A stretch of 64,000 bases of DNA from Candidatus Paracaedibacteraceae bacterium (GCA_030694965.1 JAUYTZ010000006.1:62001-126000); one strand, 5' to 3'; counted from the stretch's first letter, positions 964 to 64,000 are shown. The notes: a model not told the origin generated them from the sequence alone. Translations and numbers: made by a program.

Positions 964-1968
964 TTAGTTTTTCTTTTTATCCTCTGCTTTCTTTTTTGAA
1001 GCAGATTCTTTTTTACTATCTTTCTTAGTTTCCGCAGGCTTTGAAACTTCCTTCTTTGCTTCTTCAGCTTTTGGCGTCTCTTTAACAGGTTCTTCAACTT
1101 TTGGTGCCTCTTTAGCAGGCTCTTCAGCTTTATCGTCACCTGGCTTTGAAATATCTTCGCCAGCTTTTATACGCTTTACTAACTTTAAATAAGCATCTGT
1201 TTTAAGTGGAGGAGCTGCAAACAATGAACCATCCTTATTTTGAATAAAGACTGTTGGAACACCAGGAATCTTTAATTTTTCAATAAGCACTACATTTTCT
1301 TCTAATTTCTTTTGGATAGCAGCTGACTCTTCATCTTTAATGAATTGTGCAACATCAATACCAGCTTCTTTAATAAGAGCTATTAACTTTTCACGTGTTA
1401 AATCATTAACCTTATCGACAAACTTACGCATCAACGTTTTTGTCTTATCAGCACTTTGAGTTGCAGATGCAAGCATTACTTTTGAAACAGCAACAGAATT
1501 TGGTCCAAGGATTGGCGCAACGACTAGCGTAAATGAAACATCTGATGATTTTTCAACTGTTTCAATTGCCGTCCTCATAAAGTCATGGCAATGTGGGCAC
1601 ATTGGATCAATCATCACGTACACTTGAAGTGCAGCTTTAGCATTCCCCCAAACAATTGCATTTTTCGCAAAGGTATCTTTTTCTGCTGTTGCATTCTTTT
1701 CTAAATCACGTGCTGACTTTTCTTGTTGCATTTGCATGCCATCATTAATTGCTTTCATAAATACATCTGTCTTTTCACGTGCAACCTTAACAACAATCTC
1801 TTCAATTGCCTTTGTTTGCTCGTCAGAGAAAACGGCATGCGTATCTGACGTATTTTTTTTATTACTAGACGAACTGCCTGAGGTAAAATAAATTCCCAAC
1901 GCAATGCCTATCACAGCAATCACACCAATAACCAGCTTAATTGTTGAGTTATTTTCTTTGTTTTCCAT
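964..1968 (-). CDS. DsbA/Com1-family thiol:disulfide oxidoreductase with charged C-terminal tail
   Basis: A periplasmic thioredoxin-fold protein expected to form or shuffle disulfides in exported proteins. The 334 residues contain one N-terminal membrane segment (about residues 10-30), a Gln/Glu-rich helical linker, a thioredoxin-like domain with active site DPMCPHCHD near residue 123, and the cis-proline segment GVPTVFI near residue 238. The domain layout matches the anchored DsbA-like (Com1/BdbD) proteins common in alphaproteobacteria. Unusual is a tail of about 55 residues built from K/E/P/A repeats (EEPAKEAP, EEPVKETP, then poly-Lys/Asp). It is transcribed alone and ends at a strong terminator. 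Which substrates it serves is not visible; the Cys-rich giant protein at the other end of the window is an obvious but unproven candidate. Confidence 0.9.
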   Translation of the reverse strand: MENKENNSTIKLVIGVIAVIGIALGIYFTSGSSSSNKKNTSDTHAVFSDEQTKAIEEIVVKVAREKTDVFMKAINDGMQMQQEKSARDLEKNATAEKDTFAKNAIVWGNAKAALQVYVMIDPMCPHCHDFMRTAIETVEKSSDVSFTLVVAPILGPNSVAVSKVMLASATQSADKTKTLMRKFVDKVNDLTREKLIALIKEAGIDVAQFIKDEESAAIQKKLEENVVLIEKLKIPGVPTVFIQNKDGSLFAAPPLKTDAYLKLVKRIKAGEDISKPGDDKAEEPAKEAPKVEEPVKETPKAEEAKKEVSKPAETKKDSKKESASKKKAEDKKKN

Positions 1969-49637: not shown

Positions 49638-50993
49638 ATGTCAACACACCGTCTTACCATTGTACCTCATATTCACTGGCATGAAGGCATGATGTTAACA
49701 CCTCAACATTTTCAGCAAATGGAATTTAGGCATCACCAGCATTTATCACATCAATTGAATTTATTGTCTCCTCATCATTGGGGAATTCAAATTCTTGAAA
49801 TTGATCCTATTGCACTCAGTGATGGTATCATTCGTATTTTAGAGCTTGAGGCGGTGATGCCTGACGGCCTAATTGTTAATTACAGATCAGACATGAAAGG
49901 TGTTGGTTCTCTTGAGCTTGATATCCGCAATTTCAAACCAGATACCTCGCATGAAGAAACAACTATATTTTTATCAATGCCACGCCGCACATCAGATCGA
50001 TCACCAACAGTTGGTGACTTAACTCGATTTATTTCAATCGAAGGAGAACCTATTAAAGACGAAAATATTCCAGACAACGTCATCGAAATACCACGGCTAT
50101 TTCCAAGGCTTATTTTAAGTATGGACAATAAACCACCGGCCCTTTGTATTGGGTTTCCAATCTTAAAAATAGTTTTTAATGAATCTTATGCACGCGCAAA
50201 CTTTATACCCCCCTGTTTTTATATTACGCACGATAAACACTTATGGAAGCACTGCGCTAATCTAGCTCAACGTATTCGCGAGAAAGCAATGTATTTAAGT
50301 GCACGCTGGCAAAACCAAATTGGCACACCAATGATGATTGAAACAGAGGCACTGCTAAGGCCACTTATCCGCGCGCTACCAGGACTTGAAGCATTGTTGA
50401 ACGTATCATATATAAGCCCATTTTCACTTTATCAAAAAATGTGTGACATCGTGGGTGACTTAACAGCACTACGCTTAACGCAGTTACCACCTATTTTGCA
50501 AGGTTACAATCATGACGATATTATGGGTTCATTTGAACCTTTGATTGAACTTATCGATCAATATCTACATACAATTGAAGAAAGCTACGCTGTTATTCCA
50601 TTCCAACAACGTGAACGTTTATTCTATGTACGAATGCATAAAAGCTACCTCAAAAAAACATTCCTTATTGGATTGCGTGCGGCAAAAGGGGTGACACAAA
50701 CACAAATGGAAGAATGGCTAATGGATGCAGTTATTTGTAGCGATTTTGCCATTGAAACTGTCCGCAACAACCGTATTACTGGGGCAAAACGACAACTTGT
50801 AGAAGGCAGCTTATTGGCTGATTTTATGCCTAATCGTGGCATGACCCTAGTAGAAGTCACTTATGATTCTGAATATATATCTGCAGATCAAAATATAAAT
50901 ATTTTTAACCCATCTGACGCCACAGAACGCCGCCCTGTTGAGATTGTGTGTTATATACCAAAAACAGGCAGTATTGAGAAAGATTCCTATTGA
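49638..50993 (+). CDS. tssK: Type VI secretion baseplate protein TssK
   Basis: Trimeric adaptor connecting the T6SS baseplate to the TssJLM membrane complex. The 451 residues begin with the hallmark VPHIHWHEGMMLTPQHFQQM and continue with the conserved LEALLNVSYISPFSLYQKMC region; the length is typical. AGGAG precedes the ATG. The stop overlaps the tssL start by one nt (TGATG), so the genes form one operon. Confidence 0.95.
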   Translation: MSTHRLTIVPHIHWHEGMMLTPQHFQQMEFRHHQHLSHQLNLLSPHHWGIQILEIDPIALSDGIIRILELEAVMPDGLIVNYRSDMKGVGSLELDIRNFKPDTSHEETTIFLSMPRRTSDRSPTVGDLTRFISIEGEPIKDENIPDNVIEIPRLFPRLILSMDNKPPALCIGFPILKIVFNESYARANFIPPCFYITHDKHLWKHCANLAQRIREKAMYLSARWQNQIGTPMMIETEALLRPLIRALPGLEALLNVSYISPFSLYQKMCDIVGDLTALRLTQLPPILQGYNHDDIMGSFEPLIELIDQYLHTIEESYAVIPFQQRERLFYVRMHKSYLKKTFLIGLRAAKGVTQTQMEEWLMDAVICSDFAIETVRNNRITGAKRQLVEGSLLADFMPNRGMTLVEVTYDSEYISADQNINIFNPSDATERRPVEIVCYIPKTGSIEKDSY

Positions 50994-51814
50994 TGAGCAA
51001 TACACGAAGCTTTCGTTTAAATAACAGCCCTTTGCTGCAATGCTTTCAGACATTTTATTATGAAGTCATTCGCTTAAAGGAAAGAGCTTTACGTTTTACT
51101 GAGGTCAATGTTCCCATTGAACATGATGAATCTCATCGAAAACAATATACGCAGCTCATCGAAGATATTCAAATGCGTCTTAAAATGACACTTGAAGAAC
51201 AAAGTTCTGTATATGCACGTGCAACGGGTGGCATAAATGCTGGTCTTTTCCATGATGCCCAATATATCATGACAGCACTTGCAGATGAAATTTTTTTAAA
51301 CCTTGCTTGGGCTGGTGCAAAGGAATGGCGATTTGCTTTACTTGAAGGACAACTGTTCCAAACACAAGTCGCAGGCGAGCTCATCTTTAAAAAAATTGAT
51401 GGCGTGCTCGAAGGATACGACATAGCACGCTACGAGCTTGCCCAACTTTATTTGATGGCCTTAAGTCTAGGATTTCGCGGCCAATATCGCGCCCATGACT
51501 CAAAAGGGCGCGTCAATTGGTATCAAAGCAAGTTATATCAAGTATGCTGTCATGAACCTTCCCAACTGTATAATCTAAGCTCAACAAAAGCACTATTTGA
51601 AGAATGCTATGCACACACGCTAAGCGAATCACCAGGACGCGGCATGCCCGATCTTCGCACATGGGGCATTTATGGGCTTTGCGTCTTTTTAATTTTTATT
51701 TTTGTCTCTTACGTTGTGTGGTATCGTATTGCCTTTGAAATACACAGCGATTTAAACACAATTTTTGCACAAACAACAAAACGGCATATGCCGCATGAGA
51801 ATCATCATGGGTGA
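50993..51814 (+). CDS. tssL: Type VI secretion protein TssL (DotU/IcmH family)
   Basis: Inner-membrane T6SS protein, 273 residues. The cytoplasmic DotU domain has YIMTALADEIFLNLAW and LEGQLFQTQVAGELIF; one C-terminal membrane segment (IYGLCVFLIFIFVSYVVWY) is followed by a short periplasmic tail. There is no OmpA-like peptidoglycan-binding extension. The start is ATG at 50993, overlapping the tssK stop; the tssM start overlaps its own 3' end. Confidence 0.94.
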   Translation: MSNTRSFRLNNSPLLQCFQTFYYEVIRLKERALRFTEVNVPIEHDESHRKQYTQLIEDIQMRLKMTLEEQSSVYARATGGINAGLFHDAQYIMTALADEIFLNLAWAGAKEWRFALLEGQLFQTQVAGELIFKKIDGVLEGYDIARYELAQLYLMALSLGFRGQYRAHDSKGRVNWYQSKLYQVCCHEPSQLYNLSSTKALFEECYAHTLSESPGRGMPDLRTWGIYGLCVFLIFIFVSYVVWYRIAFEIHSDLNTIFAQTTKRHMPHENHHG

Positions 51815-54800
51815 TGGATTACTTCAATATTTTCAAACATTCATGAATAGCATCCGTCTAGGCTTTCAATCAGTTCCTATGACATTGTGGCTTCTGTTTA
51901 TTTGCATTCTCGTTATTATCGTTATTTTACTGTTTATCATGTATGTATCGAATAAAAAAACAGAGCCAGATAAAAGTGGTGAACCAGCACGTGAAGACAA
52001 AACCAACTATTCAGCTGATGATAAAGCTATTTATGAAGAAATTGAACGCATGCCACCTTTGGGGGGGTGGATAAGTGAATTCTTATCACGCAAAGGCTAC
52101 TTCAGTGTTGGCGAATTGAGCCTATCTTTTTTACGTGCCTTATCGTTTTTAAAAACAACGTTTAACACCTACAACTACAAATATCAAGTTCCATGGTTTT
52201 TGGTCTTAGGCACAGAAGGCTCTGGCAAATCAAGCTTATTTGAATCAGGAGGTCTACATTTACCACTTGGCACACCTGATTTTTCAAAAGGAAAACTAAA
52301 AGCATCATGCCGTTGGTGGTTTTTACAAGGCGGTGTGTATATTGAATTAAAAGGCGATCTTTTCATACAAAAAGATAATGCAAAATCAAAAGAAAAAATG
52401 TGGCGATCATTTATTGTTTTGTTAACACGTTACAGGGCCGCACGTCCAATTAACGGCATTATCCTAACCATTCCAGCCACAGAACTTTATGGCAAGGATA
52501 AAGAGTCCACAGAACGTATTTATCAACGTGCAGAATACATTTCAGCTAAATTAGCAGCAGCTCAATCTTCATTTGGATTACGCATTCCTGTATATATTGC
52601 TGTGACGAAAACAGACATCATCCCAGGCTTTCAAAGCTTTTCAAAACATGTGCCGCAAAACAATAAAAACGATATGTTTGGTTGGTCAAATCCATACAAT
52701 GTAATGGCTGCTTATTCACCTGCATGGCTTGAAGATGCATTTACAACCATTGCAAATAAATTGCATCAATTACGCCTTGATATATTTGCCCATTCCGGGG
52801 CTGTTTTAAATGAGCACCTTGAAACAAATGACGGTGTATTTGTCTTTCCAGGTGAACTGGAAAAACTCAAAGAACCACTTTCAATATACATCAACGCGCT
52901 CTTTAAACCATCGGCATACCAAGATGGCCTCTTGTTTCGCGGCTTCTACTTTACAGGTGATGCAGGTCCTGAGCCCATTTCATCCATCCCCTTAAAACCA
53001 GATACATTTGATCAATTTGGTGGCTATCTCGAAAAATCTGACCCAGATGATATTACACTCATTCCTCACCCCTTTGACCCAGATACGATTCGCCTTGAAT
53101 CAAATGCAAATTCAAAAATCGATTCGATAACAATTGCTAGGCCTATTGTTCCCACAGAATATGCAGATGGCCTAAAGCTTATTTACGTACAAGAGCTTTT
53201 CACAAAGAAAATTTCTTATGAAGCAGGTCTTGCAAAACCATTAAAACAACGTTTAGTGTCGCTCAATCGCGGCATATTTATTGCAAAAGTTGCTACTGGG
53301 TCGTTTATTGTGGTTGGTAGTTTTGGTTTATTTAACGCATACGACACCTTCTCAACAAGCCGTAATAACATCACACCAGTGCTTGCAAACATGAATTTTG
53401 TACTTCACGAAATTCGTATTGATAAAAAAAACCCGCTCAATGCACGCTTTAAATCCGCAGACCAATTTAACCTTTATACTCATCAAATCATCGATATGAT
53501 GATTCAATTACAAAGAACTGATTTATTTTCCATTTTCGTACCTGCTTCATGGTTTAGCCATCTTAACAGAGACCTACACAAATCCCTACAAGTCGCATTT
53601 AAAGAAATTATTATTCGCTCAATTGCAAATGGTTTAGCTGTTCGCGCACAAGAACTTCTTTACCTAAGGCCAAAAACAATAGATGTCACGCAAAATATAA
53701 CGCAGTTATTGCTTCCTCTTAGAAGTCCAGAATTCTTATTATTGCAACGTTTTATAAATGGTTTATCTGATCTTGATCATTACGTTACAATGTTTAATTC
53801 CTTAAAAAAAACAGGTGAACCAACTCATCTAAAAGCATTAATTGCTTATACTTTCAATTGCGAATTACCAGATAGTTTTTGGGATCAATATAAGATTTTC
53901 AGAAAATTGTTAAGCAAAACGAAGCTTAGCGAATTAAACCTTCAAATGTATCAAAGTGTAGCACGTGAAACGTTAGACGTCCTTTTTCAAAACTTTACAA
54001 ATGCTATTTTTTCCAGTCAAATTCAAAACAGTTTGCCTTCGCGTTTAACTACTTTCTTAAATAGCTTAAACCAGCAAACAACGCATACATTGCCTGATTT
54101 GAAAAATTTACGTGATGTTAGCTTGCAACTCGCACAAATACGCCCACTGCTTGGCGAAGTCGGCAAAACGTGGATGGATCAACCTGTGTTTGCGCCTGGT
54201 AAAGATTTAGAGACTCTTTTTGATCGCGTTGACGCATCGCGCTTATTTGGCAAAAACGTCACCCAATACCTAGTCGATAAAGCAGCCATTGGTTTTAATG
54301 AGCTCAAGATGCACCTACTTGCCATTAATAAAATTGTTCTTGCTCCACAAACATCAGCTCCAGTGGCGCCGCTTGTTGAAGCAATGGCTAATACTAATAA
54401 TTATCCATCAAAAGGCCTCTTTGAAATCGAACGCAGCTTGTCTGCATTGTTTTCTGAAAGTTACATGGCAGCGCCCACTCATTTTTCATTCACAACGACA
54501 ACACCCCATGGGAAAATGATTTATTGGGATCCAAAATTAATTGACATCGCTTATGATATGAGTAAAGGATTCGAAAATTTTTCTTCGAAAAATATTTCAA
54601 CCTTTCCAATCATACTTCAAGAAAATATAAAACTCATTGCACGTCAAAGTTTGCAAAGTAATATTATTAGTCTATTAAGCCAAGCCCAAAGTTTTGTAGA
54701 TTTACCAGTAACTTACACGCTAAATAGCGCAGAAGAAGTATTGCGTGCAAAAATTGAAGATTTTAAAGCTGTATCTCCAAAATTTATCAAACTACTCTCT

Positions 54801-56363
54801 ATCGTAAATAAAGAATCCGTTGGCATTGCATTTCTTGACCTGCGCGCTTTACTCGTTGAAAATTCGTTTTGGTTACTCGATAACGTTAAAAAAATGATGA
54901 CAGCGTTTAATCCTTACGCGATAAGAGACTTTTCGTTCTCATGGTGGAACGGCAATGCGGGTGCTGCGCTTCAAGGATTCTCTGTACGCGACAATGCAGA
55001 CTTAGAAGCATATATGACATTACAAAACCAATTGATTCAAAAAATTTCATTAGAATTTGCCAAACCTATTGTTACCTTCTTACAGTCTCCTGTTTTTGTA
55101 GATGGTTCAGGCAACCATGCACTTCTTCGTAAATGGTCACGTATTGTGACCCAAACTGAAAATTATGCCAACCGAATTGCCGGGAATTCCGTTCAAACAT
55201 TACATGATTTTGTAACAAAAGATCTTGCCACAATGGATGCAAAAATGGTCATCACCTCTATCAATCCAGCCGAAATAAATAACGATTCAGGTGACTTCTT
55301 TATCGAAACACTAACTGCCCTTAAAAAGGGCTTTAGATCACGTGCTGAAATATTACAACGCCAACATGCAATTGCTGCGTACTCAAAATTAGCCCTTTAC
55401 TTCAATCAAAATCTAAAAGGTAAATTTCCATTCGTTACATCAAACTTAAGCCTTGTTACAGAAGAAGCTGACCCTGAAAATATTCGTGAATTTTATCGCC
55501 TTTACCAAGATGCGGGCGGCAATACTGAGAACACTCTTGACCAGCTTTATCAGCTTGGTGACGTTATGAAGAACTGTGTTCAATTCTTTAAGGCAATGGA
55601 TTACTTAAAGCAATTTTTTGCAAGTTATCTTGACCCGAATGGTGGTATGCCTATTCCAGCTTTTGATTTCACAGTTGATTTCAGAGCAAATCGTACTAAC
55701 GAACAAGGCGCAGACCTCGTCGTCGACTGGGTATTTAAACCAGATGATGTGACATCTATTGATAAAAATGATAAAGTAAAAAATGGCAGATGGACCTACG
55801 GCAATGAAGTTAAATTTAGTTTCCGCTGGCCAGATGGTGCAAAAATTCCATCATACCCTGTGCGTGATCCAAAACAACCGAACTTATCGATTAGTGATCG
55901 CACAGCAACTTTTGCGTTTAAAGGTAAATGGTCACTACTATGGGCACTGCGAATGCAAGAAGATATAAACGCCTACGCTAAATTAACATCTAAACCAAAC
56001 CCAACATTAATGAAATTCACAATTCCGACCGGGCCAACAACAAGCTCAGTTCTGTTTAATACTATTGCATTGACTGTTCCATCAACATCTGCTCACACAA
56101 AAGGCAAAGATATGAAGTTACCAAACTTCCCTGCCTTTGCGCCTGAATTACCGCCCGCAAATGAACTGCATGCAGATCGTGCGGTGTTAACTGAGCAAGG
56201 TATTGGCGGTATAAAAACTACAACTGGTGAAAAAAATACGCTAAAAAATACTTCACCTATCAGTATGTCTGGACAAGCAAAAACAAATAATCAAGCAAAG
56301 TCCCCTTTAGAAGCGCCAGTTATATCAAACAGGGCACAGCAAAACACAATAAAACGACCTTGA
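51807..56363 (+). CDS. tssM: Type VI secretion protein TssM (IcmF family)
   Basis: The large inner-membrane T6SS protein. Of about 1518 residues, N-terminal membrane segments (TLWLLFICILVIIVILLFIM) precede a cytoplasmic domain with the Walker A motif GTEGSGKSS (about residue 138) and PVYIAVTKTDIIPGF. A third membrane segment near residue 490 (IAKVATGSFIVVGSFGLF) and a large periplasmic region follow. The C-terminal beta domain (DFTVDFRANRTNEQGADLV) is followed by about 110 unusual low-complexity residues. TssM proteins are more often 1100-1300 residues. I start at ATG 51807, overlapping tssL; ATG 51795 is an alternative. No further tss genes follow. Confidence 0.93.
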   Translation: MGDGLLQYFQTFMNSIRLGFQSVPMTLWLLFICILVIIVILLFIMYVSNKKTEPDKSGEPAREDKTNYSADDKAIYEEIERMPPLGGWISEFLSRKGYFSVGELSLSFLRALSFLKTTFNTYNYKYQVPWFLVLGTEGSGKSSLFESGGLHLPLGTPDFSKGKLKASCRWWFLQGGVYIELKGDLFIQKDNAKSKEKMWRSFIVLLTRYRAARPINGIILTIPATELYGKDKESTERIYQRAEYISAKLAAAQSSFGLRIPVYIAVTKTDIIPGFQSFSKHVPQNNKNDMFGWSNPYNVMAAYSPAWLEDAFTTIANKLHQLRLDIFAHSGAVLNEHLETNDGVFVFPGELEKLKEPLSIYINALFKPSAYQDGLLFRGFYFTGDAGPEPISSIPLKPDTFDQFGGYLEKSDPDDITLIPHPFDPDTIRLESNANSKIDSITIARPIVPTEYADGLKLIYVQELFTKKISYEAGLAKPLKQRLVSLNRGIFIAKVATGSFIVVGSFGLFNAYDTFSTSRNNITPVLANMNFVLHEIRIDKKNPLNARFKSADQFNLYTHQIIDMMIQLQRTDLFSIFVPASWFSHLNRDLHKSLQVAFKEIIIRSIANGLAVRAQELLYLRPKTIDVTQNITQLLLPLRSPEFLLLQRFINGLSDLDHYVTMFNSLKKTGEPTHLKALIAYTFNCELPDSFWDQYKIFRKLLSKTKLSELNLQMYQSVARETLDVLFQNFTNAIFSSQIQNSLPSRLTTFLNSLNQQTTHTLPDLKNLRDVSLQLAQIRPLLGEVGKTWMDQPVFAPGKDLETLFDRVDASRLFGKNVTQYLVDKAAIGFNELKMHLLAINKIVLAPQTSAPVAPLVEAMANTNNYPSKGLFEIERSLSALFSESYMAAPTHFSFTTTTPHGKMIYWDPKLIDIAYDMSKGFENFSSKNISTFPIILQENIKLIARQSLQSNIISLLSQAQSFVDLPVTYTLNSAEEVLRAKIEDFKAVSPKFIKLLSIVNKESVGIAFLDLRALLVENSFWLLDNVKKMMTAFNPYAIRDFSFSWWNGNAGAALQGFSVRDNADLEAYMTLQNQLIQKISLEFAKPIVTFLQSPVFVDGSGNHALLRKWSRIVTQTENYANRIAGNSVQTLHDFVTKDLATMDAKMVITSINPAEINNDSGDFFIETLTALKKGFRSRAEILQRQHAIAAYSKLALYFNQNLKGKFPFVTSNLSLVTEEADPENIREFYRLYQDAGGNTENTLDQLYQLGDVMKNCVQFFKAMDYLKQFFASYLDPNGGMPIPAFDFTVDFRANRTNEQGADLVVDWVFKPDDVTSIDKNDKVKNGRWTYGNEVKFSFRWPDGAKIPSYPVRDPKQPNLSISDRTATFAFKGKWSLLWALRMQEDINAYAKLTSKPNPTLMKFTIPTGPTTSSVLFNTIALTVPSTSAHTKGKDMKLPNFPAFAPELPPANELHADRAVLTEQGIGGIKTTTGEKNTLKNTSPISMSGQAKTNNQAKSPLEAPVISNRAQQNTIKRP

Positions 56364-58965: not shown

Positions 58966-59703
58966 ATGAAATGGACAGATGAAGGCATTGTCATTGGAAT
59001 AACAACCTTTGCAGAAGATCAAACACGGCTAACTCTATTAACCGCACAATCAGGTCGGCAATCTGGATTGTTTAAATTAAGCAAAAAGCAGCCCACACTA
59101 CAATTAGGTGACCGTGTATCAGCAACTTGGAACGCGCGACTTTCAGAACACCTTGGACGCTTTCAAATCGAACGCCTTAGCAGCCCTGCCCCACGCATGT
59201 TTCAAGACCCATGGCGTTTATGGCTTTTGCAAAACACATGCAGCTTGCTGGCTATCTTACCTGACCGGCACCCCTACCCCACATTATTTGAAGAAGCCTC
59301 ACTTTTCTTTCATGCGCTGGTTTCAACTGACAATCAAATTTCTTTTGCATACATGACTTTGCTTGAAAAACGCATATTAGCTGACCTTGGGTTTGGTATC
59401 GATTTATCAGAGTGCTGCGTCACACACATACAAAGCGATCTAACATTTATTTCACCTAAAACAGGACGCGCCGTTTCTACAATAGCAGCGCAGCCCTATC
59501 TTGATAAATTACTGCCGCTGCCATCGTTTTGGTTAGATGAAGACTTAGCTTCTGAAACGCTCACATGGCATGACATTAGTGCAGCATTTACCGTTACAGG
59601 CTATTTTTGGCAAAAATGGCTTTTCAATGATAAACAAACATTTCCATCTGTTCGAACATCAATTATTGAATATTGTAAAAAACTGCACCGCCAACCAATG
59701 TAA
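58966..59703 (+). CDS. recO: DNA repair protein RecO
   Basis: Loads RecA at gaps with RecR and RecF. The 245 residues start with the OB-fold MKWTDEGIVIGITTFAEDQT and FKLSKKQPTLQLGDRVSATW, followed by the helical domain; the short central segment ECCVTHIQSDLTFISPKTG stands where the zinc site lies in other family members, but lacks most Cys. Complete, and typical for alphaproteobacteria. It ends at a strong terminator. Confidence 0.92.
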   Translation: MKWTDEGIVIGITTFAEDQTRLTLLTAQSGRQSGLFKLSKKQPTLQLGDRVSATWNARLSEHLGRFQIERLSSPAPRMFQDPWRLWLLQNTCSLLAILPDRHPYPTLFEEASLFFHALVSTDNQISFAYMTLLEKRILADLGFGIDLSECCVTHIQSDLTFISPKTGRAVSTIAAQPYLDKLLPLPSFWLDEDLASETLTWHDISAAFTVTGYFWQKWLFNDKQTFPSVRTSIIEYCKKLHRQPM

Positions 59704-59733
59704 AAAGCACCTCATTTCTGGGGTGCTTTTTTT
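59702..59733. terminator. Bidirectional intrinsic terminator between recO and the Cys-rich gene
   Basis: AAAAAGCACC pairs with GGGTGCTTTTTTT around TCATTTCT, directly after the recO stop. The A/T symmetry allows it also to end the convergent giant gene, which stops 31 nt away. Confidence 0.9.
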
Positions 59734-59763: not shown

Positions 59764-62700
59764 TTATGCACCACAAGAATTCGTAGCTGGATTATACTGA
59801 CTGGTTCCGTTGCAAATGCAATTACTTGAGAGTGAACCAATACCAACCTTTGAATTCGCTGGGCATGCTGCAACACATGTGGTTCCTATTATAAATGGTG
59901 TTGCACCTTGACAGCTTGCCATGCATTTTGTGCCTACTCCAGAATTAAATGGTGAAGCAAGTGGACATGTCGCCATGCATGTTGTTCCATTTAAGTAAGG
60001 CATATCCGTTGGACATGATGCTGTACACGTTGAGCCAAGTCCTGAGTTATACTGAGCCGTTGCTGGGCACACAGCTGTACACGTTTTCAAGACGGCATCA
60101 AAGTAAGGTGTCGCACCCGAGCATTCTGCTGTACATGTGCTTCCATTTATAAATGGTGCAGCTGTCGGACATTGTGCAGTGCAGGTATTGCCGTAGACAT
60201 ATGGCGCTGTTGATGGACAGTTTGTCACACATGTCTGGCTTGATGGGTTCAAATATGGAGCAAGCAAACTTGAACATGATGCTGCACAAACCCCGTTACT
60301 ACCAACCACCTGATTCCCTGGGCAAGCTGCCACACACGTATGACCATTTAAGTAAGGCGCTGTTGTTGGGCAATTTGCCACACATGATGAACCATTAATG
60401 TTCGGTGCATTCTCTGGACACGATGCTACACACGATGTGCCGCTTAAGTACGTTCCTGTTGGACAACCAGCCACACACACACCATCTACCGCATTCGATG
60501 CAGAGCTTGGACAGGATGAAACACATGTTTTACCATTTAAGAATGTCGATGTAGGGCAAGCTGCCACACACGTTGTTCCATTTGTGTAGGGTGCACTTGT
60601 TGGGCAGGTTGATACACATACGCCATCGTTAACTAACATCCCTACCGGGCATGTCGCCACACAGGTTGAACCATTCAAGTAAGGCGTCGAACCTGAGCAT
60701 GTTGACACACACGTATTGCTATCTTTATCAAGCATAGTCTTCAAAGGGCACGTTGTCACACACGTTTTACCACTAATATAAGGTGCTGATGCAGGGCAGC
60801 CTGTTACGCATTGTGACGCGCTAATTAATGGTGAAGTTGTAGGACATAGTAACACACATGTTTTGTTATTCAAGTAAGGCGTTGTTGACGGACAACCGGC
60901 TACGCACACATTATTACTAACAAAAGGTGTGGCTGCAGGACAGTTTGTCACACATGTCTTGCTTGCGCTATCAAGATATGTCCCTGCTGGGCATGTTGCG
61001 GTACATGCTTTTCCATTCAAATACTGCGCTGATGAAGGACATGTTGCCATACATGTGTTTCCGGATGTGTAAGGCAAGTTTGTTGGACACGTTGCCACGC
61101 ACATCTTACTTGCAGTATCAATAAATGTCCCTGTTGGGCATGTTGCTGTGCATGTATTATCAGTACTTATAAGAGAAGCAGATGACGGGCAATTAATCAC
61201 GCATGATTTTGCTATAGGATCCATATGCGTACCTATTGGGCAGCTTGTAACACATGTTTTTGACGCTGAGTCAAGATACATTGACGATGGGCACGTTGTT
61301 ACACACGCCTTACCATCTGCATAGGGAGCTGAAGAAGGACATGTTGCCGTACACATATTATTGTTTATAAAGGATGCAGTACTTGGGCATGCTGCCACAC
61401 ACGTTGTACCACTTAAGTAGGGTGCACTTAATGGGCATGTTGCTACACATGCTTTATGCACGCTATCTAAGTACATGCCTGCAGGACATGTTGCAACACA
61501 AGTCTTTCCATTTGAATAAGGCGCAGAATCGGGGCATGATCCCACACATACCTTATTATTTATATAAGGTGCTGTCGTTGGGCATTCTGCTGTGCATACA
61601 TTTCCATTTACATATAGTGCAGATGATGGACATGTTTCAACACAACTATTTGTCGCACTATCAAAGAATGTAGAGGCAGGACAAGATGACACACACGTCT
61701 TGTTATTCGAAATAGACGCTGTAATTGGACATGATGCCGAACACACTTTATTGTTTACGAATGGAAGTGTAGTTGGACATGAAGCCACACACATTGATCC
61801 GTTTAGGTAAGGCTCTGTTACAGGGCAGCTACTTACACACGTGTTTGATACTGGATCTGTTTTGAGAGGCGCAGGACAAGATGACACACACGTATTACCA
61901 TTCAAAATAGGCAATGTAGCAGGACAAGCAACCACACAGCTATTGCCATTCAAATTAGGGGCTGTAGTAGGGCATGTGCTTACGCATTTATTACCATCCA
62001 TATAAGGAGCCGTTGCAGGACATGCGTTCACACAACTATTACCATTGATATAAGGTAATTTTGAAGAACATGCAGCCACACAGCTATTACTACTACTATC
62101 AAAATAAGTCGACGCTGGGCAAGAAGTCACACATGTCATGTTATTCGAAATAGGTGCCGCAGCTGGGCAAGACGGTACACATGACTTTGTTACCGTGTCA
62201 ATATAAGACGCTGATGGACATGTTGCCACACATGTTTTAGATAAAACATCAAGATACGTTGATGCAGAACACTTTGACACACAGGTCTTTGAAGTCACAT
62301 CAAGATAGGTTCCAGTTGGACACATTGATACACACGTTTTTGTTAATGTATTCAAATTGGGTGTACTGCCAGAACATGTTGCTGTACATGACGTGCCAGG
62401 ACCTGAGTTATAAATCGCTGTTGTAGGACATGTTGCACCACATGTACCTGCAGCTGCATCAAGATATGTTGCTAATGGACATTTTGACACACAGGTTTTA
62501 TTTCCTGAATCAAGGTATAAAGGTGATGGGCATTTGGATACACACGTCGTTCCATTTAAGTATGGTGATTCTGTGGGGCACTTTGCCACACAAGAGGTCC
62601 CATTCGTATATGGAGAAGTTTCTGAGCAGCTACTCAAGCACACATTTTTTGATTTATCTAAAAGCATACCTGTGGGACAAGAAGCCACGCATGTTTTACC

Positions 62701-64000
62701 ATTTGCATATGGAACAGCTGTTGGGCAATTTGCAACACATGTTTGTGTAAGTGAATTCAAGTAAGACGTTGAACCTGAACATGCTGCTATACATGTTGTG
62801 CCTGGGCCCGAATTATAAGGTGTCGATGTTGGACATGTTGAACTACATGTATTTGATGCTGGATTCAAATATGTTGAACCCGAACATTTTGACACACATG
62901 ATTTAGTTGCTTGATCAAAGTAAGGCAACGCTGATGGGCAGGTTGTGCATGTCTTTGATGTTGGGTTTATATAAGGTGTAGCCGTTGGGCATGTGGACAC
63001 ACATACTTTTAATGCAGGATCATAAACAGGCTTAACAGAAGGACATGCTGAACATGTCTTCGTTGTCGAATTAGCAACAGGCGTATTACCCGTGCAAGAT
63101 GCAACACACGCTGTTCCCGCGCCTGAGTTATACGGTGTTGCTGATGGACATTTAGCAACACATGCTTTAGTCGCAGGATCTAAATGTGTTGAACCTGGGC
63201 ACTTTGACACACACTTTTTACCAACAGGATCATAAGCAGGCGTTGAACCTGAACATGCCGTGCATATCTTAGATTTTGCATTTGCATATGGCGTTGCTGC
63301 AGGACATGCTAACACGCACGTTGAACCACCACCCGAATTATACGGCGTCGCCGCTGGACATGCTGACACACACATCTTACTTGCTGGATCGTAAAAGAAT
63401 GAACCAGGACATGCAGACACACATGACTTACTTGTTTTGTCAAAAATTGGCTTTGTTGATGGACACACAGTACATGCTTTTGTCAAAGGATCTGCATATG
63501 GGACACTAGCAGAACAAGTTGCTGTACATGTTTTTGTTACTGAGTCATATGTAGGTGCGCTTGATGGGCAGGCAATACATGTTTTTGAAGCTGTATCTGC
63601 ATATGGAATTGTTACAGGACACTTAGCCACACATGTCTTAGTCGTTGGATCATATGTAGGCTTATCAGTTGGGCAAGCCTTACATGATTTAGTTGTTGGG
63701 TCAGCAAAAGGAGATGCTGCTGGACAGTTAGACACACATGTTTTTGAAGTCACATCATATGTTGGCGCAGCTACTGGGCATGACGCGCATACACGTGTTA
63801 CTGAATCTAAGAATGGTGATGTCGTTGGACATGATGCCACACATTTCTTTGCTACTGAATCGTACGCAGGCGTTGAAGCCAAGCAAGCTGTACAAGTCTT
63901 TAAAAGCGGATCCGCATATGGAGCTGATGTTGGACATGTTATCACACACGCTTTAGACGTTGGATCATACGTTGGCATTGACGTTGGACATGCTGCACAT
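59764..64000 (-). CDS. Giant cysteine-rich tandem-repeat protein (5' end outside window)
   Basis: The minus strand is open from the right edge to the stop at 59764: at least 1412 residues of one repeat, with the N-terminus missing. I count about 82 units of 16-18 residues, each with two Cys. Consensus: C-P-x-x-x-P-Y-x-(N/D)-x(2-5)-(K/T)-x-C-V-x-x. Three variants occur: one with YDxxxKxC, one with YLNGxTC and one with YNSGxGxxC. The protein is rich in Ser, Thr, Ala and Pro. The gene ends with a divergent unit (GIGSLSSNCICNGTSQYN, ending NSCGA). No membrane anchor or known enzymatic domain is visible. By composition it should be an exported, disulfide-rich fibre. I recognise no named family; a loose likeness to eukaryotic furin-like or protist surface-antigen Cys repeats is only an impression. 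Confidence 0.85.
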   Translation of the reverse strand, partial: CAACPTSMPTYDPTSKACVITCPTSAPYADPLLKTCTACLASTPAYDSVAKKCVASCPTTSPFLDSVTRVCASCPVAAPTYDVTSKTCVSNCPAASPFADPTTKSCKACPTDKPTYDPTTKTCVAKCPVTIPYADTASKTCIACPSSAPTYDSVTKTCTATCSASVPYADPLTKACTVCPSTKPIFDKTSKSCVSACPGSFFYDPASKMCVSACPAATPYNSGGGSTCVLACPAATPYANAKSKICTACSGSTPAYDPVGKKCVSKCPGSTHLDPATKACVAKCPSATPYNSGAGTACVASCTGNTPVANSTTKTCSACPSVKPVYDPALKVCVSTCPTATPYINPTSKTCTTCPSALPYFDQATKSCVSKCSGSTYLNPASNTCSSTCPTSTPYNSGPGTTCIAACSGSTSYLNSLTQTCVANCPTAVPYANGKTCVASCPTGMLLDKSKNVCLSSCSETSPYTNGTSCVAKCPTESPYLNGTTCVSKCPSPLYLDSGNKTCVSKCPLATYLDAAAGTCGATCPTTAIYNSGPGTSCTATCSGSTPNLNTLTKTCVSMCPTGTYLDVTSKTCVSKCSASTYLDVLSKTCVATCPSASYIDTVTKSCVPSCPAAAPISNNMTCVTSCPASTYFDSSSNSCVAACSSKLPYINGNSCVNACPATAPYMDGNKCVSTCPTTAPNLNGNSCVVACPATLPILNGNTCVSSCPAPLKTDPVSNTCVSSCPVTEPYLNGSMCVASCPTTLPFVNNKVCSASCPITASISNNKTCVSSCPASTFFDSATNSCVETCPSSALYVNGNVCTAECPTTAPYINNKVCVGSCPDSAPYSNGKTCVATCPAGMYLDSVHKACVATCPLSAPYLSGTTCVAACPSTASFINNNMCTATCPSSAPYADGKACVTTCPSSMYLDSASKTCVTSCPIGTHMDPIAKSCVINCPSSASLISTDNTCTATCPTGTFIDTASKMCVATCPTNLPYTSGNTCMATCPSSAQYLNGKACTATCPAGTYLDSASKTCVTNCPAATPFVSNNVCVAGCPSTTPYLNNKTCVLLCPTTSPLISASQCVTGCPASAPYISGKTCVTTCPLKTMLDKDSNTCVSTCSGSTPYLNGSTCVATCPVGMLVNDGVCVSTCPTSAPYTNGTTCVAACPTSTFLNGKTCVSSCPSSASNAVDGVCVAGCPTGTYLSGTSCVASCPENAPNINGSSCVANCPTTAPYLNGHTCVAACPGNQVVGSNGVCAASCSSLLAPYLNPSSQTCVTNCPSTAPYVYGNTCTAQCPTAAPFINGSTCTAECSGATPYFDAVLKTCTAVCPATAQYNSGLGSTCTASCPTDMPYLNGTTCMATCPLASPFNSGVGTKCMASCQGATPFIIGTTCVAACPANSKVGIGSLSSNCICNGTSQYNPATNSCGA

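Follow-up and report, generated by a model that had tools for sequence, protein, structure and literature searches.

A giant protein of 132 two-cysteine repeat units, a candidate exported disulfide-braced rod, in a Candidatus Paracaedibacteraceae bacterium

We describe a gene for a protein of 2281 residues, the mature part of which is a pure repeat array of 132 short units with two cysteines each. No other domain was found in it with Pfam, NCBIfam, or PHROGs, and the C-terminus is repeat sequence followed directly by the stop codon. On balance, we lean toward the view that the protein forms an exported, disulfide-braced rod at or beyond the cell surface. The window, a stretch of 64,000 nt (C24:62001-126000) from an assembly of 25 contigs and 1.50 Mb, contains 84 of the 132 units (59764..64000, minus strand), and 59764-63999 is a single open frame on that strand. 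The gene extends past the window to window-equivalent position 66609; in locus L009, where neighboring sequence was added and position x corresponds to window position x + 59499, the complete gene runs from ATG start to stop at L009:265-7110 (−). A preliminary description of this DNA had reported more than 4.2 kb of continuous coding sequence running past the window, with at least 82 units, and both statements hold for the complete gene. Frameshifts, which might have indicated an untranslated array, are absent across the whole 6.85 kb. The mature protein would have a mass of ~226 kDa and a pI of 8.1. The bacterium is a small-genome alphaproteobacterium that probably lives inside protists, and a 1.5-Mb genome of alphaproteobacterial type with type VI genes fits the Holosporales as described in PMC11909080.

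The units are mostly 16 (39 units), 17 (47), or 18 (40) residues long and together hold 264 cysteines (11.6% of residues), which agrees with the 16-18-residue, two-cysteine units first described. The spacing between successive cysteines alternates between 11-15 and 3-4 residues, with two exceptions among 263 intervals (one of 6, one of 2). To our knowledge, few proteins as rich in cysteine have been described from bacteria. Threonine (14.7%), serine (11.9%), alanine (11.7%), and proline (10.9%) are abundant, while glutamate (0.4%), arginine, histidine (0.2%), and tryptophan are nearly absent. A two-unit DNA pattern matched 27 times vs 0 times in 200 shuffles. Units ~9-58 (N-type) follow C-P-x3-P-[YF]-x-D-P-x-[TS]-K-T-C-V, and their C-x3-C and C-x2-C links alternate; units ~72-131 (C-type) follow C-P-x3-P-Y-x-N-G-x-x-C-V-x-x and are always linked by C-x3-C, except for the last. 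The C-type array (units 72-131) occupies 59767..62727 (−) of the window; units 48-71 at 62728..63990 (−) start as N-type and grade into mixed units with YNSG variants. Recurrence of this YNSG variant had been taken as a hint of multi-unit blocks. It does recur, but at irregular positions (units 8, 60, 64, 70, 78, 126, and 128), and the actual higher-order feature is a two-unit (35-aa) superperiod in the N-terminal half, where DNA identity is 0.657 at an offset of two units vs 0.575 at an offset of one. Unit DNA identity by offset revealed no such superperiod in the C-type half.

Identity between units by codon position is 0.65/0.74/0.47 in the N-terminal half and 0.60/0.65/0.41 in the C-terminal half. 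At shared residues, the same codon is used in 51% and 48% of cases, respectively, vs 49% and 46% expected under random synonymous choice, and the cysteines are invariant between units while synonymous sites are saturated. Because synonymous sites are saturated and every cysteine is kept, the array appears to be the product of old duplications, translated, with its cysteine grid maintained by selection on the protein. Recent block duplication was ruled out, as codon identity shows no decay with unit distance. An assembly artefact or host contamination was likewise rejected: the gene is intronless, intact under table 11, and flanked by bacterial sequence within a contig of 179 kb. A mean unit DNA identity of only 57% also makes an artefact of assembly unlikely. 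The GC3 of the gene is typical of the genome, and its codon preferences deviate mildly from the usual (distance 0.16 vs 0.07-0.10 for most other genes longer than 1.7 kb).

For structure prediction, AlphaFold2 was given alignments built from units of this protein itself (13 blocks for the 8-unit model). Modeling a few units had been suggested as a check, and both segments gave confident models with one short beta-hairpin per unit: a mean pLDDT of 92.3 for an 8-unit C-type block (units 96-103) and 92.9 for a 4-unit N-type block (units 52-55). We infer that the units pair their cysteines in disulfides within the protein. When compared with the PDB using Foldseek, the 8-unit model matched almost entirely furin-like cysteine-rich regions of ErbB, IGF1R, and insulin receptors and Fu1-Fu2 of R-spondin, with a best E of 4.1e-3, none below 0.001, and TMq mostly 0.2-0.4. 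The 4-unit model matched mostly the same furin-like proteins, but with E>2. Foldseek found nothing firm among viral structures for the array models, and phmmer of the protein against PDB sequences returned only ferredoxin-like cysteine coincidences. The Pfam model Furin-like (PF00757) scored 82.7 bits on the whole 2281 aa (cut-off 26.8) but did not match a 200-aa piece (residues 986-1185), although the best stretch lies there, and we rejected the score as proof of membership. Since no Foldseek E fell below 0.001 and the Pfam match was lost on the shorter piece, the likeness is limited to similar architecture, and family membership is unproven. A literature search on furin-like repeats in bacteria found nothing relevant.

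Export was assessed from the complete 5′ end, which the window does not reach. The start codon is preceded by a ribosome-binding-like AAAGGA, and the N-terminus (MNTLLIKKSLISLFRFPMFLFLFLFINVVDTNEVFS, then APNC) looks, by eye, like a signal peptide with n-, h-, and c-regions, which is what a look at the true 5′ end had been meant to reveal. Both features look ordinary for an exported bacterial gene. This is the only hydrophobic stretch of the protein (max KD19 2.15); no hydrophobic segment follows residue 40, including at the C-terminus. It is also possible that it serves as an uncleaved inner-membrane anchor instead. Pfam and NCBIfam detected no autotransporter barrel, RTX/T1SS repeats, sortase signal, or other surface anchor, and there is no C-terminal transmembrane or GPI signal as in Giardia VSPs and ciliate i-antigens. 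Consequently, the earlier suggestion of an exported surface or host-directed fiber is supported by the signal-like N-terminus but not by any autotransporter, T1SS, or anchor domain. N-glycosylation sequons are not enriched. The genome encodes a DsbA-like thioredoxin-fold protein with a CPHC motif (964..1968, −; PF01323, E 1.9e-13, the only match in the genome), a candidate disulfide oxidant, together with DsbB and with DsbD ~9 kb from the array. Periplasmic disulfide formation is therefore feasible, and the disulfide-rich reading has the oxidizing pathway it needs. The genome further encodes a secretin and an MshE-type ATPase, which makes an export apparatus possible; no tie to the array protein was found.

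The convergent neighbor at 58966..59703 (+), which we take to be recO from its recognized protein sequence, served as a synteny anchor. Between it and the array stop lies an inverted repeat with a T run (AAAGCACC-loop-GGTGCTTT, 59704..59729), probably a shared terminator; it was read by eye and was not reported by an inverted-repeat scan with a loop limit of 8. Beside recO, congener G002 carries an unrelated 332-aa secreted cysteine-containing protein without a Pfam match (L110:4629-5627, −), followed by flagellar genes, and congener G001 carries an unrelated ORF. The region beside recO is a variable locus. Divergent to the array, L009:7291-9069 (+) encodes 592 aa with a membrane-anchored-looking N-terminus, a His/Asp-rich C-terminus, and no Pfam family; homologues occur in three congeners, on other contigs. 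A row of type VI secretion genes, TssK/VasE-like, TssL/DotU, and TssM/IcmF-related, lies at window positions 49638-56363 (+).

The whole protein had no match in 37 other genomes of the order, and neither did a 28-block profile, which could miss diverged arrays, in 41 others, including four congeners; the gene was thus found in one of five congeners and one of 42 order genomes. A class sample (385 genomes) gave three weak matches that are not relatives, a 4Fe-4S protein (G156) and different cysteine-rich proteins (G240 and G271), and a phylum sample (398 genomes) gave one marginal match. Two giant frames of G271, L033 and L035, encode 5413 and 5936 aa, and L033 contains a subtilase-like stretch and then a cysteine-rich repeat of a different kind. 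A phage or plasmid origin was rejected, as tblastn found no match in either collection. A literature search on cysteine-rich proteins in Holosporales found nothing relevant.

Similar units do exist elsewhere. A DNA pattern of three consecutive C-x3-C-P units occurred in 43 stretches among 84,980 prokaryote species (our own genome not shown), many by chance, and in 5 stretches in viral contigs. Arrays were found in a Burkholderiaceae PilY1 (L052), alphaproteobacterial MAGs (L051, L073, and L082), Absconditabacterales (L054/L068, code 25), Bacillota/Tenericutes-type surface proteins (L087/L090), and a viral-contig protein (L094); L087 and L094 have C-terminal membrane segments. In the PilY1 (L052:133-6393, −), ~20 units lie N-terminal to the beta-propeller, apparently as a disulfide-rich stalk of the pilus tip, and a literature search on such PilY1 stalks found nothing relevant. 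The arrays of gut Alphaproteobacteria belong to giant cysteine-rich proteins; in one of these, of at least 1672 aa and from a MAG (L051:2-5017, −), the N-terminus (RSMVEMLGVLAIIGILSIGG) resembles a type IV pilin and is fused to several kinds of cysteine-rich repeat. Similarity was controlled with cysteine-preserving shuffles and expressed as excess in bits (mean per 3-unit block); the excess was positive in every bacterial, viral-contig, and ciliate array compared. For the C-type profile, it was 44.7 bits for the alphaproteobacterial L082, 34.7 for L077, 30.8 for L054, 18-22 for L087/L090/L094, and 13-17 for ciliates. Bacterial and viral-contig arrays ranged over 13-45 bits, with L073 and L051 at 10-13 when averaged over their mixed arrays. 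For the N-type profile, L082 reached 16.8 bits, ciliates 11-16, and others 3-9, leaving the N-terminal half equally close to ciliates and to L082.

The highest total profile scores belonged to two contigs, DYPS01000017.1 and JAJTHX010000131.1, with 50+ units. Both read TAA and TAG as sense, and no TGA falls inside the DYPS01000017.1 array frame; for these reasons, we assign them to ciliates, misbinned as bacterial MAGs. Their loci (L072 and L071; L063 and L057) are filed under Desulfosporosinus and Betaproteobacteria MAGs and represent eukaryotic contamination.

If the protein is a surface rod, it would be Sec-exported and consist of nothing but repeat. Each 16-18-residue unit would form a small beta-hairpin with enough cysteines for one disulfide to brace it. 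Stacked end to end, the 132 units could form a stiff, protease-resistant rod; rough extrapolation puts its length in the region of 100 nm. Such a rod would be oxidized in the periplasm via DsbA/DsbB and act at the outer membrane or beyond it, as a host-facing fiber or coat, either on the surface or extracellular. Shorter arrays of the same unit may offer a parallel in the stalks that they form in surface proteins, including those of pilus tips. We infer its passage through the outer membrane, its attachment, and its role.

As a minority possibility, the protein might never reach the surface but remain periplasmic, or attached to the inner membrane by a tether, where it could act as a scaffold, buffer thiols, or be a filler that binds metal. 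The hydrophobic signal-like N-terminus on its own, with no outer-membrane or anchor domain, is consistent with this. However, all inspected relatives of the units belong to proteins with surface or secreted features, and a rod so long would need to run along the periplasm. A metal store would also be expected to have more acidic residues and histidine beside its cysteines than the 0.4% E and 0.2% H seen here. An unlikely alternative origin is capture from a protist host such as a ciliate, with the array now a mimic of host surface antigens. The top total scores of the ciliate contigs, the absence of the gene from other members of the order searched, and the mildly atypical codon usage would suit capture, but bacterial arrays match better per block, the GC3 is normal, sequons are not enriched, and there is no ciliate-like transmembrane tail. 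Saturated synonymous sites exclude recent multiplication of the units, not capture of an array that was already old. The preliminary description considered the repeats protist-like and exchange conceivable. The long ciliate arrays bear out the likeness; recent transfer from ciliate to symbiont is not supported, because at the level of single units the closest arrays among those compared are bacterial, led by an alphaproteobacterial one, and the C-terminal half is nearer to bacterial arrays. Judged by these comparisons, the simpler account is extreme expansion of a module of bacterial, perhaps alphaproteobacterial, origin.

Restriction to one of five congeners and one of 42 order genomes, together with the different genes beside recO in G002 and G001, could point to an accessory gene that is mobile or varies between strains and serves a niche outside the core symbiosis, for example, as a coat against phages or host digestion. 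We consider this quite unlikely, as no mobile-element marker was seen adjoining the array and the congener assemblies are fragmentary; it is compatible with a surface rod. Similarly improbable, if more far-reaching, is the idea that a receptor-ectodomain-like giant rod, built from the stalk module, coats the cell or is shed into the protist host and mimics or engages host cysteine-array surface proteins, with the N-terminal half as its host-derived or host-matched part.

With up to 132 disulfides per chain, the array would put bacterial Sec export and Dsb oxidation to an extreme test. If surface-exposed, it would be a candidate for a structure that contacts the host; interaction in this group of symbionts has been discussed mainly in terms of the type VI system (PMC11909080). 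Among known systems, rusticalin (PMC6339383, PMC7379824) resembles the array in its named cysteine-rich repeats and claims of horizontal gene transfer, but its spacing, Cx6Cx6-7Cx8Cx7CC (PMC6339383), differs from the alternating 11-15 / 3-4 seen here. The furin-like region (PF00757; ErbB, IGF1R/insulin receptor, and R-spondin Fu repeats) is an extracellular rod of disulfide-held beta-hairpin modules, similar to the predicted hairpin models. In contrast, the array has strict two-cysteine units, 132 of them, and no ligand-binding L domains, kinase, or other receptor parts. Ciliate giant arrays share dozens of tandem units (C-P-x-YAD-x2-T-[KR]-x-C-V-x2-C-P), while differing in their UAR-sense code, a C-terminal multi-pass membrane region, and the lack of a two-unit superperiod; for C-type units, their per-block similarity is below that of the closest bacterial arrays. 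Bacterial C-x3-C-P stalks share the unit C-P-x(8-11)-C-V-x2-C-P beyond the cysteine frame. There, however, arrays of ~4-20 units form part of proteins that also have other domains, membrane anchors, or pilin-like ends, whereas the mature protein described here consists of the array alone, with no attached head, pilin, or membrane-anchor domain. The array also links three uses of one small module: the stalks of bacterial pili and adhesins, the giant membrane proteins of ciliates, and the furin-like rod architecture.
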